Below, in pieces: positions 10,808-46,368 of a DNA stretch of 64,000 bases. A model generated the notes under the pieces. The model was not told where the DNA came from. It made no database searches and saw nothing but the letters and a program-made list of their open reading frames with translations. A program made the translations under genes and the position numbers. Origin of the DNA: Ramlibacter sp. (GTDB taxonomy: Bacteria; Pseudomonadota; Gammaproteobacteria; Burkholderiales; Burkholderiaceae_C). Within the stretch, counting starts at the first letter, position 1. Every line of letters starts with the position of its first letter. The stretch spans positions 1 through 64,000 of the forward strand of contig JAQGMS010000095.1 of assembly GCA_028292245.1 (NCBI GenBank), written 5' to 3'.

Positions 10808-10891
10808 GTTTGAGATCCGTCGGTAGGAGGCTCCAGTATGGGCAGGAGCCGGCCCAAGTCAATCGGAAATCATCCCAGGGCCGGGCCGCGT

Positions 10892-11545: not shown

Positions 11546-11604
11546 GGATTGCCCGCGAAGCCGCTCATGCGGGCATTATGGCGTGCGGCGCGATCAAGGA
11601 CCGG

Positions 11605-12228: not shown

Positions 12229-12304
12229 GACACCTTCCCCAAGTTCAGTCGCATGGTAGACCGACTTCCGCCCCAGGCGCAAGGTCCCGCACCGGCCGGC
12301 GGGT

Positions 12305-12757: not shown

Positions 12758-12824
12758 GGTGTAAGGATAGCCCCGCGGCGCCGACTCACGTGCAGGTTCA
12801 CAATGGAGCGAAAGGAATCCCGCG

Positions 12825-13322: not shown

Positions 13323-13331
13323 GGATCATTC

Positions 13332-14033
<702 letters not shown>

Positions 14034-14036
14034 CCG

Positions 14037-14327: not shown

Positions 14328-14415
14328 CGGTTGCTCCTGGCTAAGACCCTATTGGGCAGCCCGGAGTGCAACCCGCGTCAAGCACGAAGGCGACGCCCGG
14401 GCAATACTCGCCCGG

Positions 14416-15402: not shown

Positions 15403-15412
15403 AGGAAAACCC

Positions 15413-16840: not shown

Positions 16841-16843
16841 CCC

Positions 16844-30512: not shown

Positions 30513-30516
30513 GCCG

Positions 30517-31488
30517 TCACTCGGGCTCGATGCCCGCCGCCTTGATCGACTTGCTCCACTGGATCAGCTCGATGCGGTTGAACTCGCGCATCTCGTCCGA
30601 GGTCGTGGCGAACGCGTCCATGCCCACGCTCTTGAAGAAGGTGGCCGCCGAATCGGACCGCACACCTTCCGTCAGCAGGCGATTGAGCGTGGCCACCACG
30701 TCGGGCGGCGTTCCGGCGGGTGCGTACGCGGCGAACCAGTAGCCAGCCTCGTAGCCGCGCACGCCGGATTCGTCGATTGTCGGCACATCGGGCAGGTAGA
30801 CCGACCGGGTCTTGCTGGTGACTCCCAGTGCCCGCACCTTGCCGCTTCGCACCAGCGGCAACGCAGTCGTCATGTCGGTGAACAGGATATGGATCTGCCC
30901 GGCCATGACGTCGGTGAGCGCCAGTGGATTGCCCTTGTAGGGAACGTGCAGCAGCTTGACGCCCGCCATCTGGGCAAAGCCCTCGGTGGCGACGCGCGCC
31001 GATGCGCCGCCGCTGCCGAACGTGTACTTGCCGGGGTTGGCCTTGGCCAGCGCGATGAATTCGCCCACGGTCTTCGCGGGCAGGTCGTTGTTCACCACCA
31101 TCACCTGCGAGCCGCGGCCCAGGCCCGTCAGCGGAACGAAGTCCTTGTCCGCGCTGTACGGCAATTTCTTGTACAGGTACGGGTTGGCCGCGTTGGTCGT
31201 GACGTTGCCGATCAGGACCGTGTAGCCGTCTGCCGGTGCCTTGGCCACGAATTCGGCGGCGATGATGCCGTTGGCGCCGGCCTTGTTGTCGATCACCACC
31301 GCCTGGCCGGAGCGCTGCTGCACCGTGAGGCCGACGGTCCGGGCGAGCTGGTCGGTCGCGCTGCCTGCGGTGTTCGGCACGACGAAGCGGATCGGCTTGT
31401 CCGGGAAGGCGGCCAGTGCCTGGGCCGAGGCCAGCAGGCCGGCCGCGATGGCTGACGCCGCGGCAAGGCCGCGCAAGAATTTTTTCAT
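30517..31488 (-). CDS. Bug-family periplasmic solute receptor
   Basis: A 323-residue TctC/Bug receptor. Signal peptide at residues 1-27 (GLLASAQALA-AFPDKPIRFVV). Typical core: VIDNKAGANGIIAAEFVA, VPYKGNPLALTDVMAGQI. It is translated 11 bases after the TauD-type dioxygenase and 4 bases before the lyase, so the operon couples binding of an acid in the periplasm to oxidation, CoA activation and cleavage inside. No TctAB subunits are nearby; receptor may use distant ones or act in sensing. Confidence 0.93.
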   Translation of the reverse strand: MKKFLRGLAAASAIAAGLLASAQALAAFPDKPIRFVVPNTAGSATDQLARTVGLTVQQRSGQAVVIDNKAGANGIIAAEFVAKAPADGYTVLIGNVTTNAANPYLYKKLPYSADKDFVPLTGLGRGSQVMVVNNDLPAKTVGEFIALAKANPGKYTFGSGGASARVATEGFAQMAGVKLLHVPYKGNPLALTDVMAGQIHILFTDMTTALPLVRSGKVRALGVTSKTRSVYLPDVPTIDESGVRGYEAGYWFAAYAPAGTPPDVVATLNRLLTEGVRSDSAATFFKSVGMDAFATTSDEMREFNRIELIQWSKSIKAAGIEPE

Positions 31489-31499
31489 CGGGAGTCTCC

Positions 31500-32378
31500 T
31501 TATTGCGGAACGGTGCCCTGCACCACGGTACGGTGCAGCACGCGCGCGCAGTTGTTCATGTCGAAATCGTCGGAAGCCTTGTGCAGCAGGCTGCGGTTGT
31601 CCCAGATCACGATGTCGCCCGGTTGCCACTTGTGGCGGTAGACGAATTGCGGCTGGGTTGCGTGCGCCAGCAACTGCTGCAGCAGCGCACGCCCTTCATC
31701 GACGTCCATACCTTCGATGTGCGACGTGTGGTTGCCCAGGTACAGCCCCTTGCGCCCGGTCTCGGGGTGGGTGCGCACCAGCGGGTGGGCGACCGGCGGG
31801 GCCTGAAGCTTCTCTTCTTCCGAGGCCGGACGGCTGCCCGAGTTGTGGCGCGACTGCTCCCAGCTGTGGACGGCCCGCAGCGACGCGATGCGCTGTTGCA
31901 TCGCTGCCGGCAGGGCGTCATAGGCGGCATGCATGTTCGCGAAATTCGTGTCGCCGCCGCTGGCGGGGATCTCGATCGCATAGAGCAAGGTGGTCGACGC
32001 CGGCCGCTTCATGTAGGAGGCGTCGGTGTGCCAGAAAAAGTTGCCGGGATTCTCCAGCCCCTTGGTGTTGTTGGGCTTGCCGTCGGCACCGATGTTGCTG
32101 ACCACGTGCAGCGCGGCGAAGTCCTTGCCGACATAGTCCTTGCGGATCGGCAGTTCCAGTTCGCCGAAGCGCTCGCTGAAGGCGATCTGCGCGTCTTTCG
32201 CCAGCTTCTGGTCGCGCACCACCAGCAGCGAAGACTGGTGGTAGGCCTCGACCAGCCGTTCCCACTCGCCCTCCTTCAGCTGCGCGAGATCCACGCCCGT
32301 GCATTCGGCACCGGTGGTCGCGGAAAGAGGTGCTATGCGCAGCGTGGTCTGCGTGCGTTCCAAAGCGGCTGGGTTCAT
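31500..32378 (-). CDS. TauD/TfdA-family 2-oxoglutarate-dependent dioxygenase
   Basis: A 292-residue Fe(II)/2-oxoglutarate dioxygenase. The iron ligands are His117 and Asp119 (FFWHTDASYM) and His266 (NRSLLHKA); Arg283 or Arg279 near the C-terminus should bind 2-oxoglutarate. The N-terminal domain with VDLAQLKEGEWERL is of the TauD/TfdA type, which hydroxylates and splits sulfonates, aryloxy-acids or carboxylates. It opens the four-gene operon that continues with Bug, lyase and CoA transferase, and faces the LysR gene across a 100-base region with a palindrome. Confidence 0.93.
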   Translation of the reverse strand: MNPAALERTQTTLRIAPLSATTGAECTGVDLAQLKEGEWERLVEAYHQSSLLVVRDQKLAKDAQIAFSERFGELELPIRKDYVGKDFAALHVVSNIGADGKPNNTKGLENPGNFFWHTDASYMKRPASTTLLYAIEIPASGGDTNFANMHAAYDALPAAMQQRIASLRAVHSWEQSRHNSGSRPASEEEKLQAPPVAHPLVRTHPETGRKGLYLGNHTSHIEGMDVDEGRALLQQLLAHATQPQFVYRHKWQPGDIVIWDNRSLLHKASDDFDMNNCARVLHRTVVQGTVPQ

Positions 32379-32439
32379 GTCTCGATGTCTCCTGATGGGG
32401 GGCTTGCCTGGATTGCATCATGGGGCGTGCTCCCGCACA

Positions 32440-32469
32440 ATCGGTATTATTGAAATGATTGATACCGAT
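32440..32469. promoter_or_regulatory. Candidate LysR operator: inverted repeat ATCGGTAT-N14-ATACCGAT
   Basis: A perfect 8-bp inverted repeat (32440-32447 and 32462-32469) with a 14-base spacer lies in the region between the divergent TauD-type and LysR genes, 9 bases from the LysR start and about 61 bases from the dioxygenase start. LysR-type regulators commonly bind and autoregulate from such sites. The assignment is by position and symmetry only. Confidence 0.7.
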
Positions 32470-32478
32470 AAACGATCA

Positions 32479-33384
32479 ATGAACATCCGCCAGATCGAAA
32501 CCTTTCTTTGCGTGGCCGACTGCGGCAGCTTCCGGCGCGCGGCTGAGCAATTGCACCGCTCGCAGTCGGCGGTGAGCGTGCACGTGCAGCAACTCGAAGA
32601 AGAACTCGGCGTTCCGCTGCTGGAAAGAACCACGCGGCGGGTGAGCCTCACGGCGGAAGGCAGGACGCTGCTGATCCGCTGCAAGAGCGTGATCGCCGAC
32701 CTGAAGGGCGTGGCCCAGGAATTGCGCGATGAGTCGAGCCTGCGCCGTGGCCGCGTTTCCATCGGCACCGCGCCGTCGATCTCCACCCACCGGCTGCCGC
32801 CGATCATTGCCGCCTACCAGGCCAGCTATCCCGGAGTGACGCTCGAGTTGCACGAGGCCTTTGCCAAGGGCATGTACGACGACGTCCTCAATCGCGTGAC
32901 GGATTTCGCGATCGGGCCGAAGCTGGAAGGCCTGAAGGACTTTGACATCCGGCCGCTGATCAAGGACCCCATCGTCGCCGTGCTGCCCGCGGCCTACCCG
33001 CTGAACGGCCGCAAGAGCATCAGCCTGGAAGAGATCGCCGGCCTGCCCCACCTGAGCATGCCCAAGGGAACAGCGATCCGCACGGTGATCGAGGACGCCT
33101 TCAAGGCGGGGCGCCACGCCTTCTCGCCCAAGTTCGAAATCATCCACCAGCAGACCTTGTTCAGCCTGGTGGAAGCGGGCCTGGGGGTGACGATTCTTCC
33201 GCTGATGAGCGTGCCGCAGGAACGCAGCCCGAAGTACCAGGTGGCGCACCTGCTCGCGCCTGCGATCGTGCGCGAAATCTGCCTGGTGACCCTCAAGGGC
33301 AAGACCTTGTCACCCGCTGCGAGGCAATGCGCGGAGCTGATCGTCCAGGGCCTGAAGGGGCAATTGCAGATGCTGAAAGAGTGA
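32479..33384 (+). CDS. LysR-family transcriptional regulator
   Basis: A 301-residue regulator. Residues 1-60 are the winged helix-turn-helix (MNIRQIETFLCVADCGSFRR, then RSQSAVSVHVQQLEEELGV) and residues ~90-300 the effector-binding domain with two lobes. It is divergent from the TauD-Bug-lyase-CoA-transferase operon and most likely activates it in response to the growth substrate. The ATG at 32479 starts the family sequence; upstream frame has no homology. Palindrome at 32440-32469 is its probable site. Confidence 0.95.
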   Translation: MNIRQIETFLCVADCGSFRRAAEQLHRSQSAVSVHVQQLEEELGVPLLERTTRRVSLTAEGRTLLIRCKSVIADLKGVAQELRDESSLRRGRVSIGTAPSISTHRLPPIIAAYQASYPGVTLELHEAFAKGMYDDVLNRVTDFAIGPKLEGLKDFDIRPLIKDPIVAVLPAAYPLNGRKSISLEEIAGLPHLSMPKGTAIRTVIEDAFKAGRHAFSPKFEIIHQQTLFSLVEAGLGVTILPLMSVPQERSPKYQVAHLLAPAIVREICLVTLKGKTLSPAARQCAELIVQGLKGQLQMLKE

Positions 33385-35174: not shown

Positions 35175-36527
35175 TCAGGCATAGGCACTCCCCGAGCGCG
35201 CTTTCAACAGGAATTCATCGCCGCCCACCTGCCCGCCCTTGAGCAGCACCTCGGCACCATCCATAGCCGGCGTGTGGGCGTGCAAGCGGCATAAATGGGC
35301 GTTCTCTTGAAAGTCGCTTGCCACGATGGAGAGCGCATAAGCTCCACATGCCCGCATTGCATGACTCGACGTGTCCCCCCCAGCGAAGACCGCACGACGC
35401 ACCGCCCCACTGCCGATCAGCGCAGCGAAGACGCCGGCGAATGCGTGGCCGATGCGGCGCACCACCTCCTCGCCTGGCAGGCCTGCGGCTTTCGCCTGCG
35501 CTTTCGACTCGGCAATGGATGGATCGTCCGGCCCGAGTGCAGTGTGGATGATCACGCCGTCCGCCTTGTCGAATGCCTGCGTAGCGGCTTCGACAAGCCG
35601 CCCCACCACACGTGGCTCGCCACCGGAGCGCAGCAGCTGCGGCACGTCGAGCTGCAAGGCAGCAAAGCCCGCTGCTGCGGCCACGGCGATCTGGCTTGCC
35701 GTCCTCGGCGCGCAGCTGCCGGAGAGGACGAGGAGCTTTTCGACGCCTGCCAGCGCCTGGCCTGTCGCCTGCGCACGCCCGAGGAGCTGTCCCAGGCCGT
35801 GCGCCAGCCCCTGTGCGGCCAGCGCGAAGACGGGCCGCCGGCCGGAAAGCTCCCACAGCAGCGTCGAGCCGAGCGCAAGGTGCTCGGGTGTGAGCGTGTC
35901 CAGGACGAACAAGTCGTGCCCGGCGGCCAGCAGTTCATCGAGCCGCCGCTGCGCCGCCTCGCGTCCCATCCCGAGCGCCAGCACGTCCAGCAGGCGCGCG
36001 TCGCCGTGACCCAACGATGCAAGATGCGCCATCAGGTCCGACTCCCCCATCGGCGTCACCGGATGCCGGGACATCGAGGGATGGCGGTCGAGTCGCGACA
36101 CGGTGCCCCGGTAGTCGGCGAAGTGGTTGCCGAACACCGTATACCGGCCGAAATGCGGAACCGCTGCGTAGACCGGAACGACGCAGCCGGGCCACTGCCG
36201 GCGCGCCTCGTCGATGACGGTGCCGAAGTTGCCGCAGTCAGGGCCCGAATCGAACGTGGAGCAGATCTTGTACTGAACGAAGCGCGGACGCAGTTCGGCA
36301 AGGGCCTCGAAGCCGGGCCGCAACTCCTGAATCATTTGCTGCGGCGGCAACGAGCGTGAAATGCCCGCGATGCCCAAGACGTCCAGCTGTTCGGAGTGCC
36401 TGCGCAGGGCGTCCCGGTCTGTCGCGTCGAAAAACAGCATCGCCCGCAGGCCATGGCGATGGAACTGGGCCAGATTGTCGGATGAACCCGTGAAGTCGTC
36501 GCCGTAGAAAGCGATCTGCAAAGTCAT
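35175..36527 (-). CDS. DUF1537 four-carbon acid sugar kinase-type protein (OiaK-like candidate)
   Basis: A 450-residue kinase of the DUF1537 family, which phosphorylates C4-C5 sugar acids (tetronates, 3-oxo-isoapionate). N-terminal ATP/substrate motif YGDDFTGSSDN (residues 6-16) and the C-terminal FAGGDTSSHAM (near residue 398) are both intact. ATG at 36527 overlaps the RuBisCO-like stop (ATGA). It is the last gene of the eleven-gene operon. In D-apiose catabolism the same pair, a DUF1537 kinase (OiaK) and a RuBisCO-like decarboxylase (OiaX), occurs; whether the substrate is the same is unknown. Confidence 0.88.
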   Translation of the reverse strand: MTLQIAFYGDDFTGSSDNLAQFHRHGLRAMLFFDATDRDALRRHSEQLDVLGIAGISRSLPPQQMIQELRPGFEALAELRPRFVQYKICSTFDSGPDCGNFGTVIDEARRQWPGCVVPVYAAVPHFGRYTVFGNHFADYRGTVSRLDRHPSMSRHPVTPMGESDLMAHLASLGHGDARLLDVLALGMGREAAQRRLDELLAAGHDLFVLDTLTPEHLALGSTLLWELSGRRPVFALAAQGLAHGLGQLLGRAQATGQALAGVEKLLVLSGSCAPRTASQIAVAAAAGFAALQLDVPQLLRSGGEPRVVGRLVEAATQAFDKADGVIIHTALGPDDPSIAESKAQAKAAGLPGEEVVRRIGHAFAGVFAALIGSGAVRRAVFAGGDTSSHAMRACGAYALSIVASDFQENAHLCRLHAHTPAMDGAEVLLKGGQVGGDEFLLKARSGSAYA

Positions 36528-37792
36528 GTTCCGAAAGCCTCGACCGCGCGCGCCAGTGCGCGGTGGGTGGCGGCGAATTGCGGAAGCGGCACGCCCGAGC
36601 GTGCCGCTTCCCACGCATCACGCAGGCTCTGCACGCCGGCGGCAATGCCATCCGGGTGCGCCGCGATGCCGCCGCCGCAGGCATGGATCAGGTCGACGCT
36701 GCCGAGCGCCTCGTACGTGTCGACGGCTTGGCCCGCCCACTGCCCCGAGGAGAACACCGGCATGATGCGGAAGTCCTTGGCCGGGGCTTCGAACATCGGC
36801 GTGAGGCAGGAGCGTGCGGAAGCGACACACGAATCGTCGGGTTCGCAGAACTTGTTGCGGATGCCGTTGACGTGGATGTGGTCGATGCCGGCCAGGCGCC
36901 AGAACTTCTGCCAGGCGGGCGTGCTGAAGCCGAGTTGCGGGGAGCGCGACAAGGCGCCCCAGCCGTTGCGGTGCCCGTGGATCGCAAGCTGCGAATGGCG
37001 CCGCAGCTCGGTGATGCCGACGAGTCCGCAGCTTTGCACGCTTGCCATCACGCATGTGCCACCGCGGGCCAGAACGTGGTCATGCCGTGAGCGCATCTGG
37101 TCGAGATCGCCCGTTATGTTGAAGGCATACATCACCTTGCGGCCCGACCGCTGCGCGTGGTCGAGGATCACTTGCATGACCTGGTCGACGCGTTCCTCGA
37201 AGGGGCAATCCACGCCATCCGACTGCAGTTCATCGTCCTTGATGAAGTCGATGCCGCCTTCGCAGAGGTCGCGCACCCGCCTGGCGGTCTCTTCCGGCGA
37301 AAGCCCGATGCTGGGCTTGATGATGGTGCCGATCAGCGGCCGGCCGTGGACGCCCGAAAGCCGCCGCGTGCCCTCGATGCCGAATTGCGGGCCCGCGAAT
37401 GCGTCGGCAAAGACGCGCGGTACCTCGAAGTCGAGCAGCCGCATGCCCGAAAACTGCGCCAGCTCATAGAGGTTTCCCGCCAGGGTCGTCATCAGGTTGG
37501 GCAGCGACGGCCCGATGTTGCGCAGCGGCCAGGAGAGATGCACTTCCGCTTGCCGCCAGCGCGGCGCACCGGCGCCCTTGGGGGAGCGCGCCCCCGGCAG
37601 GCTGGGGCTGTCCGCCCAACCCAGTTCGACCACGCGCTCGACCACGGCGCCGTTGCGCTGCTTCAGCTGCGCCGTCTCGCCCGGTACTGCAACGAAGGTG
37701 CCCGTGGACTGCTCCCCCGCCATGACTGCCGCGGCCTCATCGAGCGGAAATGCCGTTTCGATCAGGTAGCTGGCGCTGATGCGCTCGTCCAT
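36524..37792 (-). CDS. RuBisCO-like protein (form IV)
   Basis: A 422-residue RuBisCO-like protein. Residues matching RuBisCO's active site are mostly kept: Glu27 (E60), Asn107 (N123), Lys159 (K175, in IIKPSIGL), Lys185/Asp187/Glu188 (K201/D203/E204, in IDFIKDDE), His274-Arg275, His307, Lys314 (K334), Ser348-Gly350 and GGG 373-375. Ser161 replaces K177 and an Ile replaces T173. So it can probably enolise a phosphorylated keto-sugar acid and decarboxylate it, but is unlikely to fix CO2. It lies between the racemase-like gene (3-base gap) and the DUF1537 kinase (4-base overlap). Confidence 0.9.
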   Translation of the reverse strand: MDERISASYLIETAFPLDEAAAVMAGEQSTGTFVAVPGETAQLKQRNGAVVERVVELGWADSPSLPGARSPKGAGAPRWRQAEVHLSWPLRNIGPSLPNLMTTLAGNLYELAQFSGMRLLDFEVPRVFADAFAGPQFGIEGTRRLSGVHGRPLIGTIIKPSIGLSPEETARRVRDLCEGGIDFIKDDELQSDGVDCPFEERVDQVMQVILDHAQRSGRKVMYAFNITGDLDQMRSRHDHVLARGGTCVMASVQSCGLVGITELRRHSQLAIHGHRNGWGALSRSPQLGFSTPAWQKFWRLAGIDHIHVNGIRNKFCEPDDSCVASARSCLTPMFEAPAKDFRIMPVFSSGQWAGQAVDTYEALGSVDLIHACGGGIAAHPDGIAAGVQSLRDAWEAARSGVPLPQFAATHRALARAVEAFGT

Positions 37793-37795
37793 GGC

Positions 37796-38470
37796 TCAGT
37801 TCGGCAGCAAGCCGCGCGCCTGCAGCTGCTCGCGCACGCGGGTGATGCCCAGCAGCGGGCTCGTCAGGACCGGTGTCGCGAAACTGGATTGCCGTCCCTC
37901 GAGCAGGCGCGCCATCGAGGCCTGCGCCAGGACGATCACGTCCTGCGTGCCGGCCATGCGTTCGATGGCGTCGCGCAGGATCCGGTCGTGGGCCTCGGTA
38001 TTGCCGCGGGACAGCTCGTCGAACGCATCCTGGCAAAGCTCGCGGTGCAGCGTCACGGCCTTCCCGATTTCGCGCGCCTTCTGCTCCAGCAGGCGGCAGG
38101 TGGGCAGCATCGTGGTGGGCAACGTGGCAATGACACCGATGCGCGCCCCGCGCCGCACCGCCTCTTCGGCCATGCCTTCGTCGATCTTGTAGACCGGCAG
38201 TCCGGTCGCTTCGGCCAGCGGGCCCGCCATTTCGGAGATGGACGAACAGGTGACCACGATGGCTTGCGCCTTCGCCGCGACGGCGGATTGCGCCATGTGA
38301 TCGAGCCGCTCGCGGACCGCCGACGTCATCCCGTTTTCACGGAAGATCTCGGACACGATGCTGTCGTCCATGAGGTTCACCACGCGCAGGCTGGGCATCA
38401 GCGACCGCACGATGTTGTGGATGGGGGCTATCACGACCGGGCCGGTGTGCAGCAGGGCAAGGGTTTGCAT
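37796..38470 (-). CDS. Asp/Glu/hydantoin-racemase-superfamily protein
   Basis: A 224-residue protein of the Asp/Glu racemase fold. The N-terminal-half catalytic Cys is in VTCSSISEM (near residue 75), preceded by the substrate loop HTGPVVIAPIHN. The second catalytic Cys of true racemases is absent, with Ala in VLAQASMARL. A one-cysteine member may act as a decarboxylase or isomerase rather than a racemase, as AMDase-type enzymes in this superfamily do. It lies 3 bases from the RuBisCO-like gene and 19 bases from the GH127-like gene in the operon. Confidence 0.85.
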   Translation of the reverse strand: MQTLALLHTGPVVIAPIHNIVRSLMPSLRVVNLMDDSIVSEIFRENGMTSAVRERLDHMAQSAVAAKAQAIVVTCSSISEMAGPLAEATGLPVYKIDEGMAEEAVRRGARIGVIATLPTTMLPTCRLLEQKAREIGKAVTLHRELCQDAFDELSRGNTEAHDRILRDAIERMAGTQDVIVLAQASMARLLEGRQSSFATPVLTSPLLGITRVREQLQARGLLPN

Positions 38471-38489
38471 GCTCGGAATTTCCTGTGGA

Positions 38490-40184
38490 TCAAAGGTGAA
38501 ATGCGGCGACCGAGAAGGTCTTCTCGACCATTTCCGGCGGTGTCGTCGCGCCGGGCTGCCGCTGGTAGAGCGGCACGCGCGTGCCGCCGGGTGAAATTCC
38601 CACCACGGTGTCGCCGCGCCATTCGACCTCGTAGGTGGTGTCGAGCACGGTCTCCCGGGTGGTTGCGGCCGCGACCGGAAACGAGGCCTCGACGACGGTG
38701 CCGGCGGCAAGCGGGCCTGTGCGCACGAACACGGTGTCACTGAAACGGTGGGGGGTCTCCCTGGAGGCAGGCTCCTTTCCGTTGATCTTCAGCACGAGGT
38801 TGCGCGGATCGACCCAGGAGGGGACGCGGATGCGAAGTTCGGTGTGGCGGTGCAGGGTGACCTCGACGCGCCCCTCGGCAGGCAGCCAGCTTCTGACCGT
38901 CGCATGCTCGCTCGCGCTATTGATCAACAGGTTGACGCTCACGGCCTGCTTGTCGATCGTCGTCGCGTGGCTCCACGCATTGAACAGGCCCCGCACACCC
39001 TGCGCGCTGCAGCACGTGTACAGGTCCCAGCGGTGCATGACCTTGGAAACCAGGTCGTTCGGCTGCGACCAGCCGGCGAAGCCGCCGAGCGAGCGCTGCG
39101 CCACGTTCTCGGTGGTCTCCCACTCGCTGTCCTCGGTCGGCTGCGTCGACGGCTTGACCCAGTCGATGCGCGTGACCTGGCTTTCGAGCAGCTGGTTGCG
39201 CAGGAACCGCTCGGCGTGTTCCCAGTATTGCGAGTGCCCGCACTTGGCGAGCCAGATGGCCGATTCCATCATGTCCACGATCGCGCAGGTTTCGCAGCCG
39301 TGCGCGCGCGACTTCACGAGCCGCTCCGGGAACCAGCCGAAGCTGGTGCCGTATTGCAGGGCACGGTCGAACACCCGGCGGCCCCACTCGATGGCGCTTG
39401 CATCGCGCTGCGCATGGCCGTAGCGGATCACGCCCAGCATCGTGACGGCGCGGCTGTGGAAATGGCCTTCCCGGAATTCCATGCCGGTGGCAAAACTGCC
39501 GTCGGACGCGAACGCGCTGCTCGCATGCATCACATGGCGCGCGTACGCACCGGCCAGCTCACCGGCTTCCGAATCCGGCAGCAGTTCCGCCAGCCGCGAA
39601 AGCCCGAAGATCAGGCGGCCGTTGGTGTTCGCCGGGTCCACGCCGGACCCGAGGATGGACCAGTCGCCCCGGGGCCATCCCTCGGGCGAGCGTTCGACCG
39701 CGGGAAAGTAGGCGTAGCCTTCGCGATGGATGGAGATCTCGGTCAAGGCCCGCGCCAGTTTGTTGCCCTGGCGCCGTGCCGTATCGGAGCCTTCCACCAG
39801 CGCGAGCGACAGCAACGCATTGAGCACCGAGCGCTGGTAGTGCATGTTGGCGTGATGGAAGCTCCACGGGTTTTCCGGCGTGTAGTGCAGGCCGTCGGTA
39901 CCGAACCCGCTGTCGAACAGCTGCGTCAGCGCGGGCAGGTGCGTCGATGCAGCGGCGTCGCCGGTCATCGCCTTCGCCAGCAGCAGCGCATCGATCACGC
40001 GCGAGGTGTGGTCGCTCCAGTCGAACTGGGTGTGCGCCATCCGCGGCGGGTCGCCGGTCAGGTCCGTCAGGCAGAACGGCAGGTGGTTGTGCTTGGTGTT
40101 GACGCAACCGTTCAGGCAGTTGATGGCAAGGCGGGCGCGGTCGGGCAGGAAAACGGTGTCCGGAAAACGATCGGTTTTGGTCAT
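38490..40184 (-). CDS. GH127-like (beta-L-arabinofuranosidase/DUF1680-type) protein
   Basis: A 564-residue protein with an (alpha/alpha)6 barrel and beta C-terminal domains. The zinc-cysteine active site of GH127 appears conserved: Glu298 and Cys300 (HGCETCA) and Cys391-Cys392 (YTCCSAQG), matching Glu338/Cys340/Cys417/Cys418 of HypBA1. There is no signal peptide, so it acts in the cytoplasm on an imported glycoside or ester. Usual GH127 substrates are beta-L-arabinofuranosides; here the substrate is unknown. It lies in the middle of the operon, 3 bases after the GntR gene. Confidence 0.72.
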   Translation of the reverse strand: MTKTDRFPDTVFLPDRARLAINCLNGCVNTKHNHLPFCLTDLTGDPPRMAHTQFDWSDHTSRVIDALLLAKAMTGDAAASTHLPALTQLFDSGFGTDGLHYTPENPWSFHHANMHYQRSVLNALLSLALVEGSDTARRQGNKLARALTEISIHREGYAYFPAVERSPEGWPRGDWSILGSGVDPANTNGRLIFGLSRLAELLPDSEAGELAGAYARHVMHASSAFASDGSFATGMEFREGHFHSRAVTMLGVIRYGHAQRDASAIEWGRRVFDRALQYGTSFGWFPERLVKSRAHGCETCAIVDMMESAIWLAKCGHSQYWEHAERFLRNQLLESQVTRIDWVKPSTQPTEDSEWETTENVAQRSLGGFAGWSQPNDLVSKVMHRWDLYTCCSAQGVRGLFNAWSHATTIDKQAVSVNLLINSASEHATVRSWLPAEGRVEVTLHRHTELRIRVPSWVDPRNLVLKINGKEPASRETPHRFSDTVFVRTGPLAAGTVVEASFPVAAATTRETVLDTTYEVEWRGDTVVGISPGGTRVPLYQRQPGATTPPEMVEKTFSVAAFHL

Positions 40185-40187
40185 GTG

Positions 40188-40958
40188 TCAGTTCGGTTCG
40201 GTGTCGAGGTGGTCCATCCATGTCGCGAGGCTGCGCTTCACGAGGACGAGGTAGTCGGCGACGCTGCGGCGCCGCAGTGCATCCAGCATTTCCCGGTGGT
40301 CCTGCAAGGCGATCGCGTCGACGTCGGCGCTGGCCAGCGCATGCTGCATGGTCGAGGCAAACGCCGCCATCGCTGCCCTGGCGAGGCGCGCGAACATCGG
40401 GTTGTGCGTTGCGTCGAACAGCATGTCGTGAAATTCCTGGTCGAGCTTCCTGAGCACAGCCGCGGGCTCATGCGCGTGCACCGCCTGCGCGAAGCGCTCC
40501 ACCTGCGCCTCGATCGCCGCGAAATCCTGCTCGGTCGCGTTCTTCACCACCAGCTCGCCACCGGCGTACTCGAACACCTGGCGCAGCTCGATCAGCCTCG
40601 CCTTCGTGGTCTTGGCAAGCACCAGCGACAGCGCGAGCAGCTCCACCGGCGCTTCCATGTTGCCGGTCGCGATGTAAGTGCCGTTGCCCCGCCGGATTTC
40701 GACCAGGCCGACCGCCGAGAGTGTCTTGATGGCCTCACGCACGGCGGTACGGCTCACGCCCAACTGGCTGCAAAGCACCGGTTCGGGGGGAATCCGGTCG
40801 CCGGGCTGCAAGTCGCCGCTGATCAGGTTTTCCTTGAACTGCTCGACCACCTGGGCGACCAGGTCCTGGCGCGCGTTGACGGGCCGCAGTGCGAGCTTGC
40901 GGACCGGCGTCTCGGGCGCCGGCACGAACCCGGAAGGGGAATTGGCGGACTCAAGCAT
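40188..40958 (-). CDS. FadR-type GntR transcriptional regulator
   Basis: A 256-residue regulator. Residues ~30-95 are the GntR winged helix (QLGVSRTAVREAIKTLSAVG, EIRRGNGTYI) and residues ~105-250 the all-helical FCD ligand domain (LIELRQVFEYAGGELVV ... DQEFHDMLF) that binds carboxylates or metals. It is encoded inside the operon, overlapping the ABC ATPase gene by 8 bases, so it is co-expressed with its likely targets. The ATG at 40958 is chosen because family sequence starts after it. Candidate sites are in 45751-45818. Confidence 0.93.
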   Translation of the reverse strand: MLESANSPSGFVPAPETPVRKLALRPVNARQDLVAQVVEQFKENLISGDLQPGDRIPPEPVLCSQLGVSRTAVREAIKTLSAVGLVEIRRGNGTYIATGNMEAPVELLALSLVLAKTTKARLIELRQVFEYAGGELVVKNATEQDFAAIEAQVERFAQAVHAHEPAAVLRKLDQEFHDMLFDATHNPMFARLARAAMAAFASTMQHALASADVDAIALQDHREMLDALRRRSVADYLVLVKRSLATWMDHLDTEPN

Positions 40959-41682
40959 GGGCGGCTGCCAAAAACTGGCGCAGCTCGGAGCTTTGCTGCT
41001 CGGTGAACAGCTCCGCCGGTGCGCCCGACTCACAGACCTTTCCGTTGTGCATGAACACGATGTTGTTCGCCACCCGGCGGGCGAACGCCATTTCGTGCGT
41101 CACCAGCAGCATCGTCATGCCGTCGGCGGCAAGCCGTTCGATCACTCGCAGCACCTCGCCGGTGAGTTCCGGATCGAGGGCGGAGGTCACTTCGTCGAAC
41201 AGCATCACCTTGGGCTTGAGCGCCAGCGACCGGGCGATCGCCACGCGTTGCTGCTGGCCGCCGGACAATTGCTCCGGGTACGCGTCGCGTTTGTCGACCA
41301 GGCCGACCTGGGCCAGCACGGTTGCGGCAATCTCGCGCGCCTGCGCCGGGCGCATCCGCTTGACGGCCGTGAGCGCCAGCGTGATGTTGCGCTCGACGGT
41401 GAAATGCGGGAAAAGGTTGTAGCCCTGGAAGACGATCCCGACATCCTGGCGCAGGCGCCGCAAGGCGTCGTGGTTGCCGCTGATGGTGTGGCCGGCCACC
41501 TCGATGCTGCCGGAGTCGACGCGCTCGAGTCCGTTGAGGCAGCGCAGCAGGGTGCTCTTGCCCGAGCCGCTGCGGCCGATGAGCGCAACGACACCGCCGC
41601 CCTCGACCGTGAGGGACACGCCCTTCAGGACCTCGAGGTCCCCGTAACGCTTATGAATGTTGGAGACTTGAACGACCGGCAT
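40951..41682 (-). CDS. Polar amino-acid-type ABC transporter ATP-binding protein
   Basis: A 243-residue ABC ATPase. Walker A GRSGSGKST, signature LSGGQQQR, Walker B VMLFDEVTS and the switch His are all in place. It is of the GlnQ/HisP type that drives uptake of polar amino acids and related charged solutes. It overlaps the upstream permease gene by 32 bases and the GntR gene by 8 bases. It completes a four-protein importer with the two permeases and binding protein of this operon. Confidence 0.95.
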   Translation of the reverse strand: MPVVQVSNIHKRYGDLEVLKGVSLTVEGGGVVALIGRSGSGKSTLLRCLNGLERVDSGSIEVAGHTISGNHDALRRLRQDVGIVFQGYNLFPHFTVERNITLALTAVKRMRPAQAREIAATVLAQVGLVDKRDAYPEQLSGGQQQRVAIARSLALKPKVMLFDEVTSALDPELTGEVLRVIERLAADGMTMLLVTHEMAFARRVANNIVFMHNGKVCESGAPAELFTEQQSSELRQFLAAAHA

Positions 41683-42319
41683 TGAGTTTGACCTCGAGTT
41701 TCTGGCTGAGCGCCGACAGCGGGAAGCAGATGGCGAAATAGAGAGCGCCCACGCAAAGGAACACCACCGCGGGCTGGAATGTAATGTTGTTCAGGAGTTG
41801 GCCCGCGCGCGCCAGTTCGATGAAACCGACCAGCGCGGTCAGGGACGTGTTCTTCACGATCTGCACCATGAAGCCCACGGTGGGCGGTGTGGCGATGCGC
41901 GCCGCCTGCGGCACGATAACGTAGTAGAGCTGCTGCGTGCGGGTCAGGCCGAGCGAATCGGCACCCACCCATTGCGCACGGGGCACCGATTCCAGGCATC
42001 CGCGCCAGATCTCACCGAGGAAGGCCGATGCGTAGATCGTCAGCGCCAGGCCGGCGGCGAACAGTGCGGGCAATGTCGCGCCCAGCAGCGTGAGGCCGAA
42101 ATAGGCGATGAAGAGCTGGATCAGCAGCGGCGTGCCCTGCACCATCTGCACATATGCCGTGGCGGCCAGCCGCACGGCCTTGAAGCGCGAAATGCGTGCG
42201 AACGCGATGACCAGGCCCAGCAGGCCGCCGCAGGTGAACGCGATCAGCGACAGCATGATCGTCCACTGCGCCCCCGTCAGGAGGTACTGGAATTCCGTGA
42301 GTCCGAAGCTGCGGTTCAT
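41651..42319 (-). CDS. Polar amino-acid-type ABC permease (second)
   Basis: A 222-residue inner-membrane permease of the His/Gln/Arg/opine class with about five spans. The conserved EAA loop (GADSLGLTRTQQLYYVIVPQA) contacts the ATPase. It is 4 bases downstream of the first permease gene and overlaps the ATPase. The pair forms a heterodimer with the first permease, as usual for this importer type. Confidence 0.93.
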   Translation of the reverse strand: MNRSFGLTEFQYLLTGAQWTIMLSLIAFTCGGLLGLVIAFARISRFKAVRLAATAYVQMVQGTPLLIQLFIAYFGLTLLGATLPALFAAGLALTIYASAFLGEIWRGCLESVPRAQWVGADSLGLTRTQQLYYVIVPQAARIATPPTVGFMVQIVKNTSLTALVGFIELARAGQLLNNITFQPAVVFLCVGALYFAICFPLSALSQKLEVKLNAGRSSLQHS

Positions 42320-42323
42320 GATG

Positions 42324-43013
42324 TCAGGCCCACACGGCTTTGCCCTGCCGGCGACGGTGCGGGAAGAGCAGGATGCTCAGCCCGGCGAACAGAGCCCGGT
42401 ACAGGAGCGTCAGGAAGAAGTAGATGATCCCGATGACGATGAAGACTTCGAGGGCGCGGAACGTCTCCGACTGGATCACGTTGGCCATCGATGTCAGGTC
42501 GTCGGCCCCGATGGCGGAGATGATGCTGGTGCCCAGCGCGATCAGGATGAACTGGCTGACCAGCGCAGGGTAAACATTCTCGATGGCCGGCAGGAGGACC
42601 ACGCTCATGAACACCCGTGTCCGTGACAGGCCCAGCGACAGGCCCGCCTCGATCTGGCTTGGATGCACGCTGGCGATCCCCCCGCGCACGATCTCGGTCA
42701 CGTAGGCGCCGTTGTTCAGCACCACGGCAACCAGCGCCGCCTCGGTGGTGGAAAGCTTGATGCCGATGGTGGGCAACACGAAGAAGATGATGAACAGCTG
42801 GATCAGCATCGGCGTATTGCGGATAATCTCGACGTAGGCCGTCACCGCATAGCGGATCGCGCGGGAGCGCGCACGGCGGCCGAGGGCGCCGAAGACGCCG
42901 ATGACCAGGCCGAAGATGATGGCCGCCGCCGAGAACAGCAATGTTCTCCAGAGCCCTTCCAGCAGCAGGGGCCAGCGGGCCAGGACGTCGCCGAATTGAA
43001 GTGTGTAGTCCAT
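42324..43013 (-). CDS. Polar amino-acid-type ABC permease (first)
   Basis: A 229-residue permease of the same class, with spans at ~20-45, 55-80, 90-110 and 150-210 and the EAA loop GLSLGLSRTRVFMSVVLLPA. The ATG at 43013 follows the TIM-barrel stop at 43016 by 2 bases, and a longer frame to the right has no family sequence. It works with the second permease. Confidence 0.93.
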   Translation of the reverse strand: MDYTLQFGDVLARWPLLLEGLWRTLLFSAAAIIFGLVIGVFGALGRRARSRAIRYAVTAYVEIIRNTPMLIQLFIIFFVLPTIGIKLSTTEAALVAVVLNNGAYVTEIVRGGIASVHPSQIEAGLSLGLSRTRVFMSVVLLPAIENVYPALVSQFILIALGTSIISAIGADDLTSMANVIQSETFRALEVFIVIGIIYFFLTLLYRALFAGLSILLFPHRRRQGKAVWA

Positions 43014-43015
43014 GT

Positions 43016-44083
43016 CTATTGAACGGTGAGGCCGAGGGCCGGCGCAGCTTGCTGCGCGGACTGCCACTGTTGCCTGAGCCAGCGCGAGCATGCGATCGCC
43101 TGTTCGAACACGGAGTACTTCGCCCCGCCCGCGTAGTCGATGAAAGGAAGGAACTCCGTCGAGATCTGGCCCAGGCGGCTGTCGGCGCGGGAGGCGTGGA
43201 AGCGCAGCAGGCGGCGCACCACTTCTTTCCACGGCTCGAGCCGGTCCTGCGCCCATTCCGAGTGCCACTCGCCCGGCTCCGGCCGGGCGAACGGATACTC
43301 GATGCCCCGCCCGGGTGTGCCGTCCGGATGCCGGGCCCAGATGTTGACCGGATTCGCTGGGGCCGCCGAACGCGCGTGCGCATGCCGGACCCAGTTGCGC
43401 TCGATCCATTCCGTGCAGACGTCATCCTCGTGGAACGGATCGAGTTGCAGGCGGCCGGACACGACATCCTTGCGCAGGCCCTGCACTTCCTGCTCGGACG
43501 GGTTGTCGATCTTGAAGATCACGTGCGAGTGGTCGAGTGTGAGGTTGAACTCCACGCCGCGCCGCTCCACCAGCTCCCCCACCGCGGCCACCCGGCCGAA
43601 ATGCTCCGACCAGGTATTCACGTGGGTTTCCAGGCAGGGCGCCACGCCATGGCGTTCGCCGAGCTCCGCCGCCCACACGAAGGCGCGCGCGACCTGTTCG
43701 TTGCTCACCAGTGCCCCATGCACGTCGTGCGTCATGATCTTGATGTTGTGCGCATCGCTGCCGAGTTCGCTCGCGATCCGCAAGTGCCACTCGAGCAGGG
43801 GTTCGTCGCGGCCCAGCACATAGGAGAAGCCGCCGGCGCGCACGGGGATGCCATATGTCTGGCTCGCCCGCTGATACAGCTCCAGTTCGCCGGGGAGCGG
43901 CGTCTTGTCGATGTAGTCGAAAGCGCCGGCTTCCCGCACCATGCGGAACTTCGTGTCCACGTCGAACCCGTCCACCGTGTGGGCGATGTTGGCCGCGGCA
44001 ATGCCGATGGGGAGCTGTTTCACGGGCTTGGGCGGGGAAATCTTCAGAAGACGGGCAGGTCCGCCATCGCGTTGCCGAGCCAC
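43016..44083 (-). CDS. Xylose-isomerase-like TIM-barrel protein (sugar isomerase/epimerase family)
   Basis: A 355-residue protein of the AP endonuclease 2/xylose-isomerase-like TIM-barrel superfamily. Probable metal ligands: Glu in CLETHVNTW, Asp/His in LTLDHSHV, and Glu in STEFLPFID. Members isomerise or epimerise sugars or act as decarboxylases (for example OiaC in apionate catabolism). The longest start (44083) overlaps the binding-protein gene by 40 bases; a GTG at 44023 fits better because the conserved start KQLPIGIAAANIAHTVDG follows it. It sits between binding protein and permeases, which is unusual and implies close functional linkage. Confidence 0.82.
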   Translation of the reverse strand: MARQRDGGPARLLKISPPKPVKQLPIGIAAANIAHTVDGFDVDTKFRMVREAGAFDYIDKTPLPGELELYQRASQTYGIPVRAGGFSYVLGRDEPLLEWHLRIASELGSDAHNIKIMTHDVHGALVSNEQVARAFVWAAELGERHGVAPCLETHVNTWSEHFGRVAAVGELVERRGVEFNLTLDHSHVIFKIDNPSEQEVQGLRKDVVSGRLQLDPFHEDDVCTEWIERNWVRHAHARSAAPANPVNIWARHPDGTPGRGIEYPFARPEPGEWHSEWAQDRLEPWKEVVRRLLRFHASRADSRLGQISTEFLPFIDYAGGAKYSVFEQAIACSRWLRQQWQSAQQAAPALGLTVQ

Positions 44084-44841
44084 TTCTGGTAGATCTTCGA
44101 GAAGGCGCCGTTCGACTTGTTCGACATCACCCAGATGTCGATCCAGCGGGCCATGTCGGGGTCGCCGCGGCGCATGCCCACCGCGAAGTACACGTTGCGC
44201 AGGGTGAGTTTCGGCTCGAGCTTCAGGCCTGGGTTGCGATCGGAGAATGCCTTGGTCATGATCTCGCCGGTGGCATAGCCGTCGGTCTGGCCGCTGAGCA
44301 TGGCCGCCTGCGCCGAAGCTTCGTCGTCGAACCGGATGATCTGCGCGCCGGCCGGCGCCATGGTGGCTAGGTCGGTCTCGTTGGTGGTGCCACGCGCGAT
44401 GCCGATCTTCTTGCCCTCGAGGTCGGCGAAGGCGCCGATCTTCTTGTCCTTGGGCGCGACCACCACGGCGCGCATGCCGCCATAGGGGATCGAGAACGTG
44501 ATGCTCTTCGCGCGCTCAGGCGTCACGGCGAAGGCGGAGATGACGAAGTCCACGCGCTTGGTCATCAGGTAAGGGATGCGGTTGGCGCCGTTCACCTGGA
44601 CGATCTCGAGCTTGACCCCGAGGTCTTTCGCCAGCATCTGGGCGACTTCGACGTCGGCCCCGGCCGGCTTCATCTCCTTGTCCTGGAGGCCGAATGGCGG
44701 GGCGGACAGGTCGATGGCGACCTTGACCGTGCCGCTCTTGATGATGCGGTCCAGAGCTGTAATGTCCTCGGCCTGTGCCGGGAGGGATGCCGCGATGGCC
44801 GTGACCGTGATGACGGCCAGCCGCTTAAATTGAGTGAACAT
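44044..44841 (-). CDS. Polar amino-acid-type ABC substrate-binding protein
   Basis: A 265-residue SBP_bac_3-family binding protein. Signal peptide at residues 1-24 (VTAIAASLPAQAED). The mature part has the expected lobes: VKVAIDLSAPPFG, VDFVISAFAVTPERA, GIARGTTNETDLA. Its family binds polar amino acids and opines rather than plain sugars, so the imported solute is probably charged or amino-acid-like. It is the periplasmic part of the importer encoded next to it. Confidence 0.93.
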   Translation of the reverse strand: MFTQFKRLAVITVTAIAASLPAQAEDITALDRIIKSGTVKVAIDLSAPPFGLQDKEMKPAGADVEVAQMLAKDLGVKLEIVQVNGANRIPYLMTKRVDFVISAFAVTPERAKSITFSIPYGGMRAVVVAPKDKKIGAFADLEGKKIGIARGTTNETDLATMAPAGAQIIRFDDEASAQAAMLSGQTDGYATGEIMTKAFSDRNPGLKLEPKLTLRNVYFAVGMRRGDPDMARWIDIWVMSNKSNGAFSKIYQKWLGNAMADLPVF

Positions 44842-44893
44842 GAAGTCTCCTGCGTTGATGCTCGAACTGTGGTGAAAAGGTGAAATGCCCCGC

Positions 44894-45736
44894 TCAGGCG
44901 GTTTGCACCGGATGCCCTCGACTGAAATCGTTCAGGCCGCAGCGGTCCACGCCGCGGACCAGCATGAGCGGCCTGTTCTGGTGCGCCGCGCCCGGATACT
45001 GGCGCGCATGCTCCAGGTCGGCCGCGTCATGGTCGAAATGGGAGGCGGAGGGGATGTAGCGAATCGACACCCCCGCGCGCGGACGCGTGCCGTTGTTGTG
45101 CTCTGCGCCGTGGATGGTGTACACGTCGAAGATCACCATCTCGCCGGCCTTCAATTCGACGCTCTTGGCCTGGCTCTCGTCGAACTCGTCCTCGGCGAGG
45201 TATTGCGGAAACACGGTGTCCTCGCGGTCCGCCTTGAGGTGGCGCCCGATTTCCTTCTTCTGGTGGGAGCCGGGAATGACGCGCAAGCAACCGTTCTCGA
45301 TCACGCTGTCGTACACGGCGATCCACACGCTCGTCGTGGCCAGCGGCTTGATGGGCCAGTAGCGCCCGTCGCGATGCCACGGCGTGGCCGGCCCGCCACC
45401 GGACCGCTTGTAGAACATCTGGCAATCCCACAGGATGAGGTCCGGCCCGATCAGCTGCGACACCATGTCCAGGATGTCGGGGTCGGTCGCGACCTCAACC
45501 CAGTCTTTCGTTGTCTTCAGGCCTTGCGGCCCGGCACCCGGAACATGCAATCCGACGATCGCCTTGTTCAGCAGGGTCGGGTTGTCCGCCACCAGTTGCT
45601 CCGTCAGCTGTTGCAGCTTTGCCAAGCGCTCGCCGCTCAGTCTGTAGTCAGGGACAAGGTAGCCATCACGCTTGTAATGGCTGATCTCCTGAGGCGAGAG
45701 GATCTCTCGCACCGCCGTCTCCTCGGACAAATGCAC
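44894..45736 (-). CDS. PhyH-family 2-oxoglutarate-dependent dioxygenase
   Basis: A 280-residue Fe(II)/2-oxoglutarate dioxygenase of the phytanoyl-CoA dioxygenase type, the first gene of the operon. Iron ligands: His121 and Asp123 (PWHRDGRYW) and a distal His about residue 209-213 (TIHGAEHNN), with Arg downstream (GVSIRYIP) for 2-oxoglutarate. Such bacterial enzymes hydroxylate small amines, ectoine or phosphonates. It starts with GTG after an AAGGGA site. Being first suggests it makes the first oxidation of the imported solute. Confidence 0.9.
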   Translation of the reverse strand: MHLSEETAVREILSPQEISHYKRDGYLVPDYRLSGERLAKLQQLTEQLVADNPTLLNKAIVGLHVPGAGPQGLKTTKDWVEVATDPDILDMVSQLIGPDLILWDCQMFYKRSGGGPATPWHRDGRYWPIKPLATTSVWIAVYDSVIENGCLRVIPGSHQKKEIGRHLKADREDTVFPQYLAEDEFDESQAKSVELKAGEMVIFDVYTIHGAEHNNGTRPRAGVSIRYIPSASHFDHDAADLEHARQYPGAAHQNRPLMLVRGVDRCGLNDFSRGHPVQTA

Positions 45737-45750
45737 TACTTTTCCCTTAC

Positions 45751-45818
45751 TTCAGCTAGTACGACGCATGCTGAAGCGGCAGGTGAATCGGAATTGAAAG
45801 CGTCGTATGTCGTATGAC
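45751..45818. promoter_or_regulatory. Candidate GntR operator region upstream of the PhyH/RuBisCO-like operon
   Basis: Several symmetric elements lie here. CTTCAGC (45751-45757) pairs with GCTGAAG (45771-45777). TACGACGC (45761-45768) pairs with GCGTCGTA (45800-45807). GTCGTATG at 45802 is repeated directly at 45809, giving TCGTATGACGT, close to the FadR-type consensus TNGTNNNACNA. The region lies 15-82 bases upstream of the first gene, where a FadR-type GntR repressor would act. No assay supports it. Confidence 0.55.
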
Positions 45819-45909
45819 GTCTCATGACTGAATGATCAACCGGAAGGCTGGGCACCGCAATCAGGGTTTCCCCGGTTCGCTGCCGCCGTGCGGTTTCGCA
45901 GGGGGATGA

Positions 45910-45929
45910 CACCATCCACTTAGATGGTG
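45910..45929. promoter_or_regulatory. Candidate RHH operator CACCATC-N6-GATGGTG
   Basis: A perfect 7-bp inverted repeat (45910-45916 and 45923-45929) with a 6-base spacer lies 13 bases before the ribbon-helix-helix gene; a further half-site GATGG follows. Ribbon-helix-helix repressors usually bind such short paired sites in their own promoter. Confidence 0.65.
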
Positions 45930-45942
45930 CTAAGATGGCCCC

Positions 45943-46368
45943 ATGCCCAGAGCCAGCACCAAGTCCCTCACCGCGTCGGTCAAGCCGGTCGACGAGAAGA
46001 TCACCATCAACCTGGGCTGCGTCGACCTGGGCCAGATCGACCTGCTGGTGCAGGAAGGCTTCTACGCCAACCGCACCGACCTGATCCGCACGGCCATCCG
46101 CAACCAGCTGGTCACGCACGGCGAGGCGGTGCGGCAGGCGGTCTCGCGCAAGACGCTGACCCTCGGCATCCACCACTTGACCAAGGCCGACCTGCTAGCG
46201 GCGCAGAAGGCCGGCGAAAAACTGCAGGTGCGGGTGCTGGGGTTGGCTTCCATCGCACAAGACGTGACGCCGGCGCTCGCGCTGGCCACCATCGAATCCA
46301 TCACCGTGCTGGGCACGCTACAGGCCAGCCCCGCCGTCAAGGCCGCGCTCGCCAAGCGAACGCGCTGA
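45943..46368 (+). CDS. Ribbon-helix-helix (CopG-like) transcriptional regulator
   Basis: A 141-residue protein. Residues ~18-65 form the ribbon-helix-helix: a beta strand KITINLGCVDLGQIDLLV and the helices FYANRTDLIRTAIRNQLV. The C-terminal half (KTLTLGIHHLTKADL ... RVLGLASIAQ) is an additional domain. It is followed 22 bases later by a PHA depolymerase gene, an arrangement common in Comamonadaceae, so it probably regulates that gene and itself through the palindrome at 45910-45929. Confidence 0.88.
   Translation: MPRASTKSLTASVKPVDEKITINLGCVDLGQIDLLVQEGFYANRTDLIRTAIRNQLVTHGEAVRQAVSRKTLTLGIHHLTKADLLAAQKAGEKLQVRVLGLASIAQDVTPALALATIESITVLGTLQASPAVKAALAKRTR

Follow-up and report, generated by a model that had tools for sequence, protein, structure and literature searches.

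What might a bacterium degrade with an operon that sets a RuBisCO-like protein (RLP) and a DUF1537 kinase beside an amino-acid-type importer, a glycosidase-like protein and a racemase-fold protein? The question is raised by a 64,000-nt stretch of DNA (hereafter the window) from Ramlibacter sp. (GCA_028292245.1, contig JAQGMS010000095.1; genome G000), in which eleven open reading frames (ORFs) run on the minus strand from 45736 down to 35175. To our knowledge, few reactions have been assigned to RLPs. We tentatively propose, at a likelihood just short of even, that the operon catabolises a 2-C-carboxy branched sugar, either free or bound in a small glycoside. The directly supported parts of this proposal are the gene content, the active-site residues retained by the RLP and the lack of a match in the genome to the oxido-isomerase ApnO, which produces 3-oxo-isoapionate in the oxidative apiose pathway; the substrate and the order of steps we infer, and the general scheme is moderately supported.

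A preliminary description of the window had reported the eleven same-strand genes and had found no known pathway to fit them, and both points are confirmed. Named by Pfam and NCBIfam scans of the window ORFs, the genes follow in the order PhyH dioxygenase, periplasmic binding protein, xylose-isomerase-like TIM barrel (TIM), two permeases, ATPase, GntR/FCD regulator (an operon member left unnamed in the text of that description), divergent GH127-like protein (GHl), one-cysteine racemase-fold protein (Rac), RLP and DUF1537 kinase; third codon positions are rich in G+C. Judged from start candidates, the genes are separated by gaps of 52 (PhyH/binding protein), 20 (binding protein/TIM), 2, 4, 3, 19 and 3 bases or overlap by 32, 8 and 4 bases; the 20-base gap holds for a TIM start at GTG 44023, and the ORF extended to 44083 would give a 40-base overlap. 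Because the spacing is so tight, we infer that the eleven genes form a single transcript. The proposal turns first on the last two genes:

36524–37792, minus strand: RLP with a putative OiaT-type active site; RuBisCO_large 231.7 bits, OiaX model NF042437 467.5 bits (cut-off 700).
35175–36527, minus strand: DUF1537 sugar-acid kinase; PF07005 169 bits, PF17042 91.3 bits, OiaK model NF042436 348.1 bits (cut-off 700).

The closest models are thus OiaX, matched over nearly the full length of the RLP, and OiaK, and both cut-offs are missed. This supports the earlier placing of the pair in the 3-oxo-isoapionate (D-apiose) family. At these scores the two proteins do not group tightly with OiaX and OiaK, nor are the other genes unlinked in all relatives, since homologues of the importer, Rac and GHl are each linked to an RLP–kinase pair elsewhere. 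Among solved structures the first match of the window RLP is 3nwr, ‘a rubisco-like protein’ (423.5 bits). We aligned 28 sequences, comprising two RuBisCOs and 26 RLPs, using residue numbers that we take to be those of spinach RuBisCO. The window RLP retains the equivalents of K175, K201-D203-E204, H294, H327 and S379; its loop-6 lysine lies one column off K334, as in the OiaX rows, and a serine occupies the K177 position. The H327 and S379 equivalents are also kept in 21 of the 21 other non-OiaX RLP rows, whereas in four of the four OiaX rows above the cut-off Q replaces H327 and G or C replaces S379. The loss of these residues that sets OiaX apart is therefore absent from the window RLP. The protein shares 64–66% identity with RLPs from loci in Xanthobacteraceae, Ancylobacter for the most part. 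This, together with the two retained residues, suggests a transcarboxylase/hydrolase of the OiaT type rather than a decarboxylase. The OiaT transcarboxylase/hydrolase is an RLP of Xanthobacter autotrophicus (Carter et al., 2018, as cited in PMC6302742), and the OiaX decarboxylase, as we understand the sections of PMC6302742 available to us, is that of Agrobacterium radiobacter K84.

To place the pair among its relatives we assembled 117 RLP loci: the best 80 of at least 446 relatives from a genome scan, 26 from a search of the order (all near matches besides the window, distant RuBisCO matches being left out), nine from the surroundings of OiaX-model matches, one from a Streptomyces plasmid, and the window itself. 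A kinase match (at least 45% of the query) is present in 107 of the 117; of the ten loci without one, several are cut off at a contig end and keep part of the kinase or nothing of it. A neighbouring PGDH_C protein, which by position and family we take to be ApnO (no NCBIfam model matched it), lies near the RLP–kinase pair in 67 of the 117 loci; both a Gfo/Idh/MocA oxidoreductase and a match to the D-apionate lactonase model (313 bits against a cut-off of 750) are less frequent. In the Ramlibacter genome we obtained no ApnO match at E 1e-10, the same search being positive in 12 of 19 genomes. Whole-genome searches of 34 distinct RLP genomes, made with one PGDH_C protein as query and in a set partly chosen for its lack nearby, found ApnO in 14 and no match in 20. 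Because 20 of the 34 have no match, it is not unusual for an RLP–kinase pair to occur without ApnO, provided that no unrelated protein stands in for it. No match was found in any of the nine genomes of one RLP clade (L121 and L128–L135, including genome G377 of locus L131), nor in five of the 15 Rac-type genomes besides G000 (G411, G412, G420, G427 and G635). A broader idea, that RLP loci of the Rac/GH127 type are ApnO-free as a class, was abandoned: it had rested on flanks of about 10 kb, and in whole genomes six of seven sphingomonads have ApnO.

How, then, could an RLP–kinase pair be supplied without ApnO? In the scheme that we favour, a carboxylated substrate would enter by the ABC importer and GHl, probably cytoplasmic, may release the sugar. 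PhyH, TIM and Rac would take the place of ApnO and bring the sugar to the 3-oxo form HOOC-C(OH)(R)-CO-CH2OH. The terminal CH2OH would be phosphorylated by the DUF1537 kinase, in keeping with the known role of its family. By OiaT chemistry, and with the residues that it retains, the RLP would then shift the carboxyl group and hydrolyse the product, converting HOOC-C(OH)(R)-CO-CH2OP to 3-phosphoglycerate and R-COOH. The GntR/FCD protein would regulate the operon.

The origin of the kinase was followed in trees of 41, 40 and 40 rows (full set, L190 left out and L141 left out). All trees in this work came from short searches with SH-aLRT as their only support, no bootstrap, and characterised OiaT and OiaK proteins were absent from them. 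The kinase of the window falls together with those of L141 (Streptomyces, beside a GHl gene) and L190 (a Rhizobium etli plasmid) with a support of 99; window and L141 stay together at 96 when L190 is left out, and window and L190 at 99 when L141 is left out. In a FastTree tree of 105 rows the three fall in an 11-row set (96) with eight loci that have no ApnO or ApnL nearby; the program warned of long branches meeting, and the near neighbours survived the rebuilds without L190 or L141. The window kinase therefore appears to be close kin of the Streptomyces kinase of L141, and its membership of an ApnO-free class is only suggested. The L190 kinase, the closest found to that of the window, has an annotated OiaX at a distance of about 6 kb; this locus (10010–18319, plasmid pRetIE4771a) also carries a 3-keto-5-aminohexanoate cleavage-type gene and aldo/keto reductases.

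The Streptomyces link extends to the gene for the glycosidase-like protein:

38490–40184, minus strand: divergent GH127-like protein GHl with ETCA and CC motifs; PF20736 21.8 bits, below the cut-off of 24.2.

GHl gave no match to the GH127 catalytic-domain model PF07944, only the sub-threshold match to the middle-domain model PF20736. Both GHl and its Streptomyces homologue carry E-T-C-A and C-C, as do 4qjy and 5mqo, which agrees at motif level with a zinc site; GH127/146 enzymes bind zinc through Cys3-Glu, according to the part of PMC10850190 available to us. Compared by profile with ten GH127-family proteins of RLP loci, GHl reached E 8e-6 and a probability of 83.7%. The fold model, in which beta strands follow a helical N-terminal part, has a pLDDT of 42.7, too low for it to stand by itself; Foldseek placed five GH146 chains on top, a result that is not independent because the alignment behind the model held GH127/146 proteins. 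Overall, GHl would be a very divergent GH127 relative with the Zn/Cys motif, and since no signal peptide was found by eye it is probably cytoplasmic. We found no GHl match in 398 other genomes of the order, and none in 40 RLP-bearing genomes in a search that had no positive control; a search of viral contigs was fruitless, and neither GHl nor TIM matched a PDB sequence.

The only GHl relatives in the searched collections are on two Streptomyces plasmids (36% identity), whose loci, compared gene against gene, are 92–99% identical across almost all of the region that they share and so count as one independent case. There the GHl gene is divergent from an alcohol dehydrogenase (ADH)–RLP–kinase operon and lies between GH28 genes and that operon, in a region annotated with GH28, pectinesterase, GH127-type, GH78, GH2, beta-galactosidase, fucosidase and sialidase-family genes. 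The preliminary description had counted a cytoplasmic GH127-like protein among the additions to the RLP–kinase pair; this is corrected here in that such a protein is linked to an RLP–kinase pair in another phylum. About 30 kb away on the Streptomyces plasmid lie a TIM isomerase, a split transketolase and an FGGY kinase. On the Streptomyces sp. NBC_00184 plasmid (NZ_CP108139.1, about 94–161 kb; L186–L188) the whole forms a large pectin-degradation region that holds the RLP–kinase operon, a second DUF1537 kinase with PdxA, and the isomerase–transketolase–FGGY set. Separately, a gene for a GH127/146-family protein, apparently exported in most cases, immediately precedes that of the RLP in the majority of ten sphingomonad and acidobacterial loci (L044, L063, L066, L081, L084, L088, L089, L091, L095 and L104).

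This setting brings in a more specific substrate, L-aceric acid (3-C-carboxy-5-deoxy-L-xylose) or one of its small glycosides. It is the boldest of the candidates compatible with the evidence, unproven and in our judgement distinctly unlikely. Aceric acid is a branched carboxylated sugar of rhamnogalacturonan II. Its isomerisation to the ketose would give the 3-oxo-isoapionate homologue with R = CH(OH)CH3, from which kinase and RLP would make 3-phosphoglycerate and lactate with no need for ApnO; by chemical reasoning this aldose–ketose step leads directly to the RLP scaffold. The GH127 family includes the aceric acid hydrolase BT1003, according to the portions of PMC10850190 and PMC5698469 at hand, and the Streptomyces GHl homologue lies in a pectin-type region beside the ADH–RLP–kinase operon. 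Apiose clusters are described, in the part of PMC13001218 available to us, as carrying the kinase aplK and transketolases aptA and aptB, plus the isomerase apsI in Pectobacterium; the Streptomyces isomerase–transketolase–FGGY set resembles this transketolase route for apiose, and if it serves that route the RLP–kinase pair beside it would be left for another sugar. However, this is a resemblance only; NCBIfam finds no more than a general isomerase, a transketolase and a glycerol-kinase-like protein in that set, all under cut-off, and the two near-identical Streptomyces loci are a single independent case. Moreover, the Ramlibacter genome has no GH28 and no PF07944 match, so that the host would be a scavenger of aceric acid, and PhyH is left without a role.

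Still more doubtful is the general form of this idea, in which the RLP–DUF1537 device would be a general cutter of 2-C-carboxy branched sugars into 3-phosphoglycerate and a variable acid, acting here on L-aceric acid or a close relative. If true, it would be a further use of the device beyond the two known apiose branches and, as far as our literature searches show, the first bacterial aceric acid route, with GHl, an isomerase and the RLP replacing ApnO; none was described in the titles and abstract openings of the open-licence papers listed. The aceric acid idea also means that what becomes of a rare pectin sugar can be examined directly, in enzyme assays that need three or four purified proteins.

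Within the wider proposal of a 2-C-carboxy branched sugar, the gene between GHl and the RLP also recurs in RLP loci:

37796–38470, minus strand: one-cysteine Asp/Glu-racemase-fold protein Rac; PF01177 67.5 bits.

The early reading of this protein as a racemase fold with a single cysteine was borne out. Its cysteine, in TCSS, is present in 14 of 14 aligned rows; at what is presumably the usual second cysteine site of Asp/Glu racemases it has LAQxS, with L, A, Q and S invariant in the 14 rows, so that Rac would not have the usual pair of catalytic cysteines of that superfamily. A model with pLDDT 93.3 shows the fold of the racemases (2ohg, Z 22.1, rmsd 2.8 over 215 aligned residues; 3s81_D, Z 21.9, rmsd 2.7 over 216), and against PDB sequences Rac matched hydantoin and glutamate racemases weakly and by profile alone. 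Homologues occur in 19 of the 117 RLP loci, window included: 12 loci have Rac with GH127 or GHl, seven Rac alone and three GH127 or GHl alone (Fisher p 2.5e-9, in a test that ignores relatedness and covers the fetched stretches only). Several of the sphingomonad and acidobacterial Rac–GH127 loci also have GH78, GH42, GDSL or apiosidase genes.

The remaining candidates for the conversion to a 3-oxo form stand near the start of the operon:

44894–45736, minus strand: PhyH-family Fe(II)/2-oxoglutarate dioxygenase, the first gene; PF05721 111.1 bits, HxD...H iron motif by eye.
43016–44083, minus strand: divergent xylose-isomerase-like TIM barrel, start probably GTG 44023; PF01261 23.0 bits, below the cut-off of 31.1.

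The top NCBIfam model for PhyH is ‘chlorinating enzyme’ (63.6 of 226.3 bits). The TIM family has conserved H, D and E residues in ten aligned rows, window included, and an oxygenase lies near the TIM homologue in five of ten other loci: Rieske proteins in L142, L143 and L156, a desaturase–ferredoxin-reductase type in L140 and a PhyH homologue in L151, the nearest TIM relative (63% identity), whose reading frame has stops. These neighbourhoods suggest that PhyH and TIM may work together on an oxidation or a demethylation. It is even conceivable, though quite improbable, that the two form an oxidative O- or N-demethylation module acting on a methylated sugar acid or a methylated cyclitol-like compound as the substrate, a view that can be combined with aceric acid or with apiose. 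The five oxygenase-linked loci speak for it, but demethylation at these loci is itself read from gene neighbourhoods; no oxygenase is annotated in the L139 stretch, none was found among the few genes examined in L152, L153 and L154, and the few examined in L155 included reductases only. The TIM-barrel family, which has no name (L139, L140, L142, L143 and L151–L156), also occurs in 53 plasmid records, 38 of them from Acinetobacter.

Whatever the chemistry, the proposed substrate would have to be imported and its degradation controlled, for which the operon has five genes and a presumed promoter:

45737–45942, no strand assigned: presumed operon promoter in the divergent intergenic region, placed from gene positions.
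44044–44841, minus strand: SBP_bac_3 amino-acid-type periplasmic binding protein; PF00497 118.1 bits, apparent signal peptide by eye.
42324–43013, minus strand: ABC permease A, amino-acid type; TIGR01726 105.5 bits, cut-off 42.2 (scanned as the longer ORF 42324–43409).
41651–42319, minus strand: ABC permease B, amino-acid type; TIGR01726 93.0 bits, cut-off 42.2.
40951–41682, minus strand: importer ABC ATPase; PF00005 128.1 bits.
40188–40958, minus strand: GntR/FCD transcriptional regulator; PF00392 69.2 bits, PF07729 64.3 bits.

The gene upstream of the operon faces the opposite way (45943–46368, plus strand), and the G+C content of the operon is 0.660 against 0.674 in the remaining window. 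With an SBP_bac_3 protein, HEQRo-type permeases and an ATPase, the importer is of the PAAT type; no substrate-specific NCBIfam model reached its cut-off. In locus L131, from the same family (G377; one contig, 100% complete), permease A, permease B, ATPase, binding protein, a VOC protein, RLP and kinase form a run in which the importer proteins are 44%, 62%, 66% and 38% identical to those of the window in that order. The RLP there is distant (49% identity), and the adjoining of the same importer type to so distant an RLP argues that the importer may carry in the substrate of the RLP–kinase pathway. Amino-acid-type importers are not restricted to amino acids. Of the earlier suggestion that the importer implies a charged or amino-acid-like compound, a carboxylated substrate fits, but the amino-acid part does not follow from an importer type of this breadth. 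Nothing was found to favour the opine-like substrate also suggested: when ten operon proteins were scanned (the ATPase left out), the sole rhizopine model was MocR, to which the GntR domain gave a match of 30.3 of 650 bits. For ectoine, also considered, the scores stay below cut-off: the permeases reach 129.3 of 205.2 bits against EhuD and PhyH 51.1 of 336.5 against ectoine hydroxylase. The top model of permease B is a cystine one (159.8 of 300 bits). As a separate observation, a VOC (glyoxalase-like) protein lies directly beside the RLP in L128, L129, L131, L133, L041 and L053; several of these loci have TRAP or amino-acid-type importers and SDR genes, and they look like a separate type of RLP–kinase pathway. 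The four from the order gave no ApnO match in their genomes, L041 and L053 being outside that search.

Several observations weigh against the proposal. The Ramlibacter assembly (558 contigs, one RuBisCO_large match) is 85.59% complete and 4.27% contaminated, so ApnO could lie in the missing part. In six of the seven sphingomonad genomes with Rac/GH127-type loci ApnO lies elsewhere in the genome, not near the RLP, at about 14–26 kb by coordinates if the contigs correspond. In the RLP tree (117 rows) the window RLP is a lone long branch (end branch 0.58), outside every starred set of up to half the rows and within a large clade where apiose loci prevail; the four OiaX proteins above cut-off form their own branch. 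Support for adding the kinases of L121, L128, L131 and L133, all from ApnO-free genomes, to that of the window is moderate (86, 79 and 74), and the next well-supported kinase set (98, 99 and 98) includes the apiose-type loci L071, L074, L090 and L124. The GH127 fold of GHl rests on low scores, a motif and a poor model from a GH127-containing alignment, and its link to an RLP–kinase pair comes to two independent cases. The complete eleven-gene set is known from one genome, with no second example among the loci examined.

An alternative is an ordinary D-apiose operon, in which unlinked or missed enzymes would turn imported apiose or apionate into 3-oxo-isoapionate and the kinase and RLP would finish the pathway; we think this rather unlikely. 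The window RLP is 60–67% identical to many RLPs of ApnO/ApnL loci, Rac shares a locus with RLP and ApnO in four of the 117 (p 7e-4, with the same limits as above), and the sphingomonads show that ApnO can be present at a distance. However, no ApnO or ApnL match was found in the Ramlibacter genome (the ApnL search matched in no control genome either), and the nearest well-supported kin of the kinase come from outside ApnO/ApnL loci, though the wider set includes some. Should the window operon, together with the other ApnO-free RLP–kinase loci, prove to act on branched sugar acids different from apiose, one or more catabolic roles of the RuBisCO fold would so far have gone undescribed, and a large number of RLPs with OiaX as their nearest model would not be decarboxylases of the OiaX kind. 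Elsewhere in the window, at 29526–33384, a TauD-type dioxygenase, a TctC-type binding protein and an HpcH/HpaI aldolase are adjacent, with a divergent LysR regulator, and are likely to be another catabolic cluster.

Set beside known systems, the window RLP has the OiaX decarboxylase as its closest NCBIfam model over nearly its full length, yet it stays at 467.5 bits against 700 and keeps the H327 and S379 equivalents that OiaX proteins have lost. With the OiaK–OiaT branch of Xanthobacter the operon shares an RLP with both of these residues beside a DUF1537 kinase; it differs in that its genome has no ApnO or ApnL match, its RLP and kinase fall far under the OiaX and OiaK cut-offs, and nine more genes accompany the pair (a four-gene importer, the regulator, PhyH, TIM, Rac and GHl). 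GHl, for its part, differs from the GH127/GH146 cysteine glycosidases (clan GH-P, including BT1003) in having no PF07944 match, no signal peptide by eye and no PDB sequence match, and resembles them in the ETCA and CC motifs and, in a low-confidence model, in the helical-then-beta layout. The Streptomyces sp. NBC_00184 set has a zinc ADH and, over a 49-kb stretch, no match to Rac, the window-type TIM, PhyH or the window binding protein; like the window, it brings together GHl (36% identity), RLP (48%) and kinase (41%), and the two kinases group in the tree.

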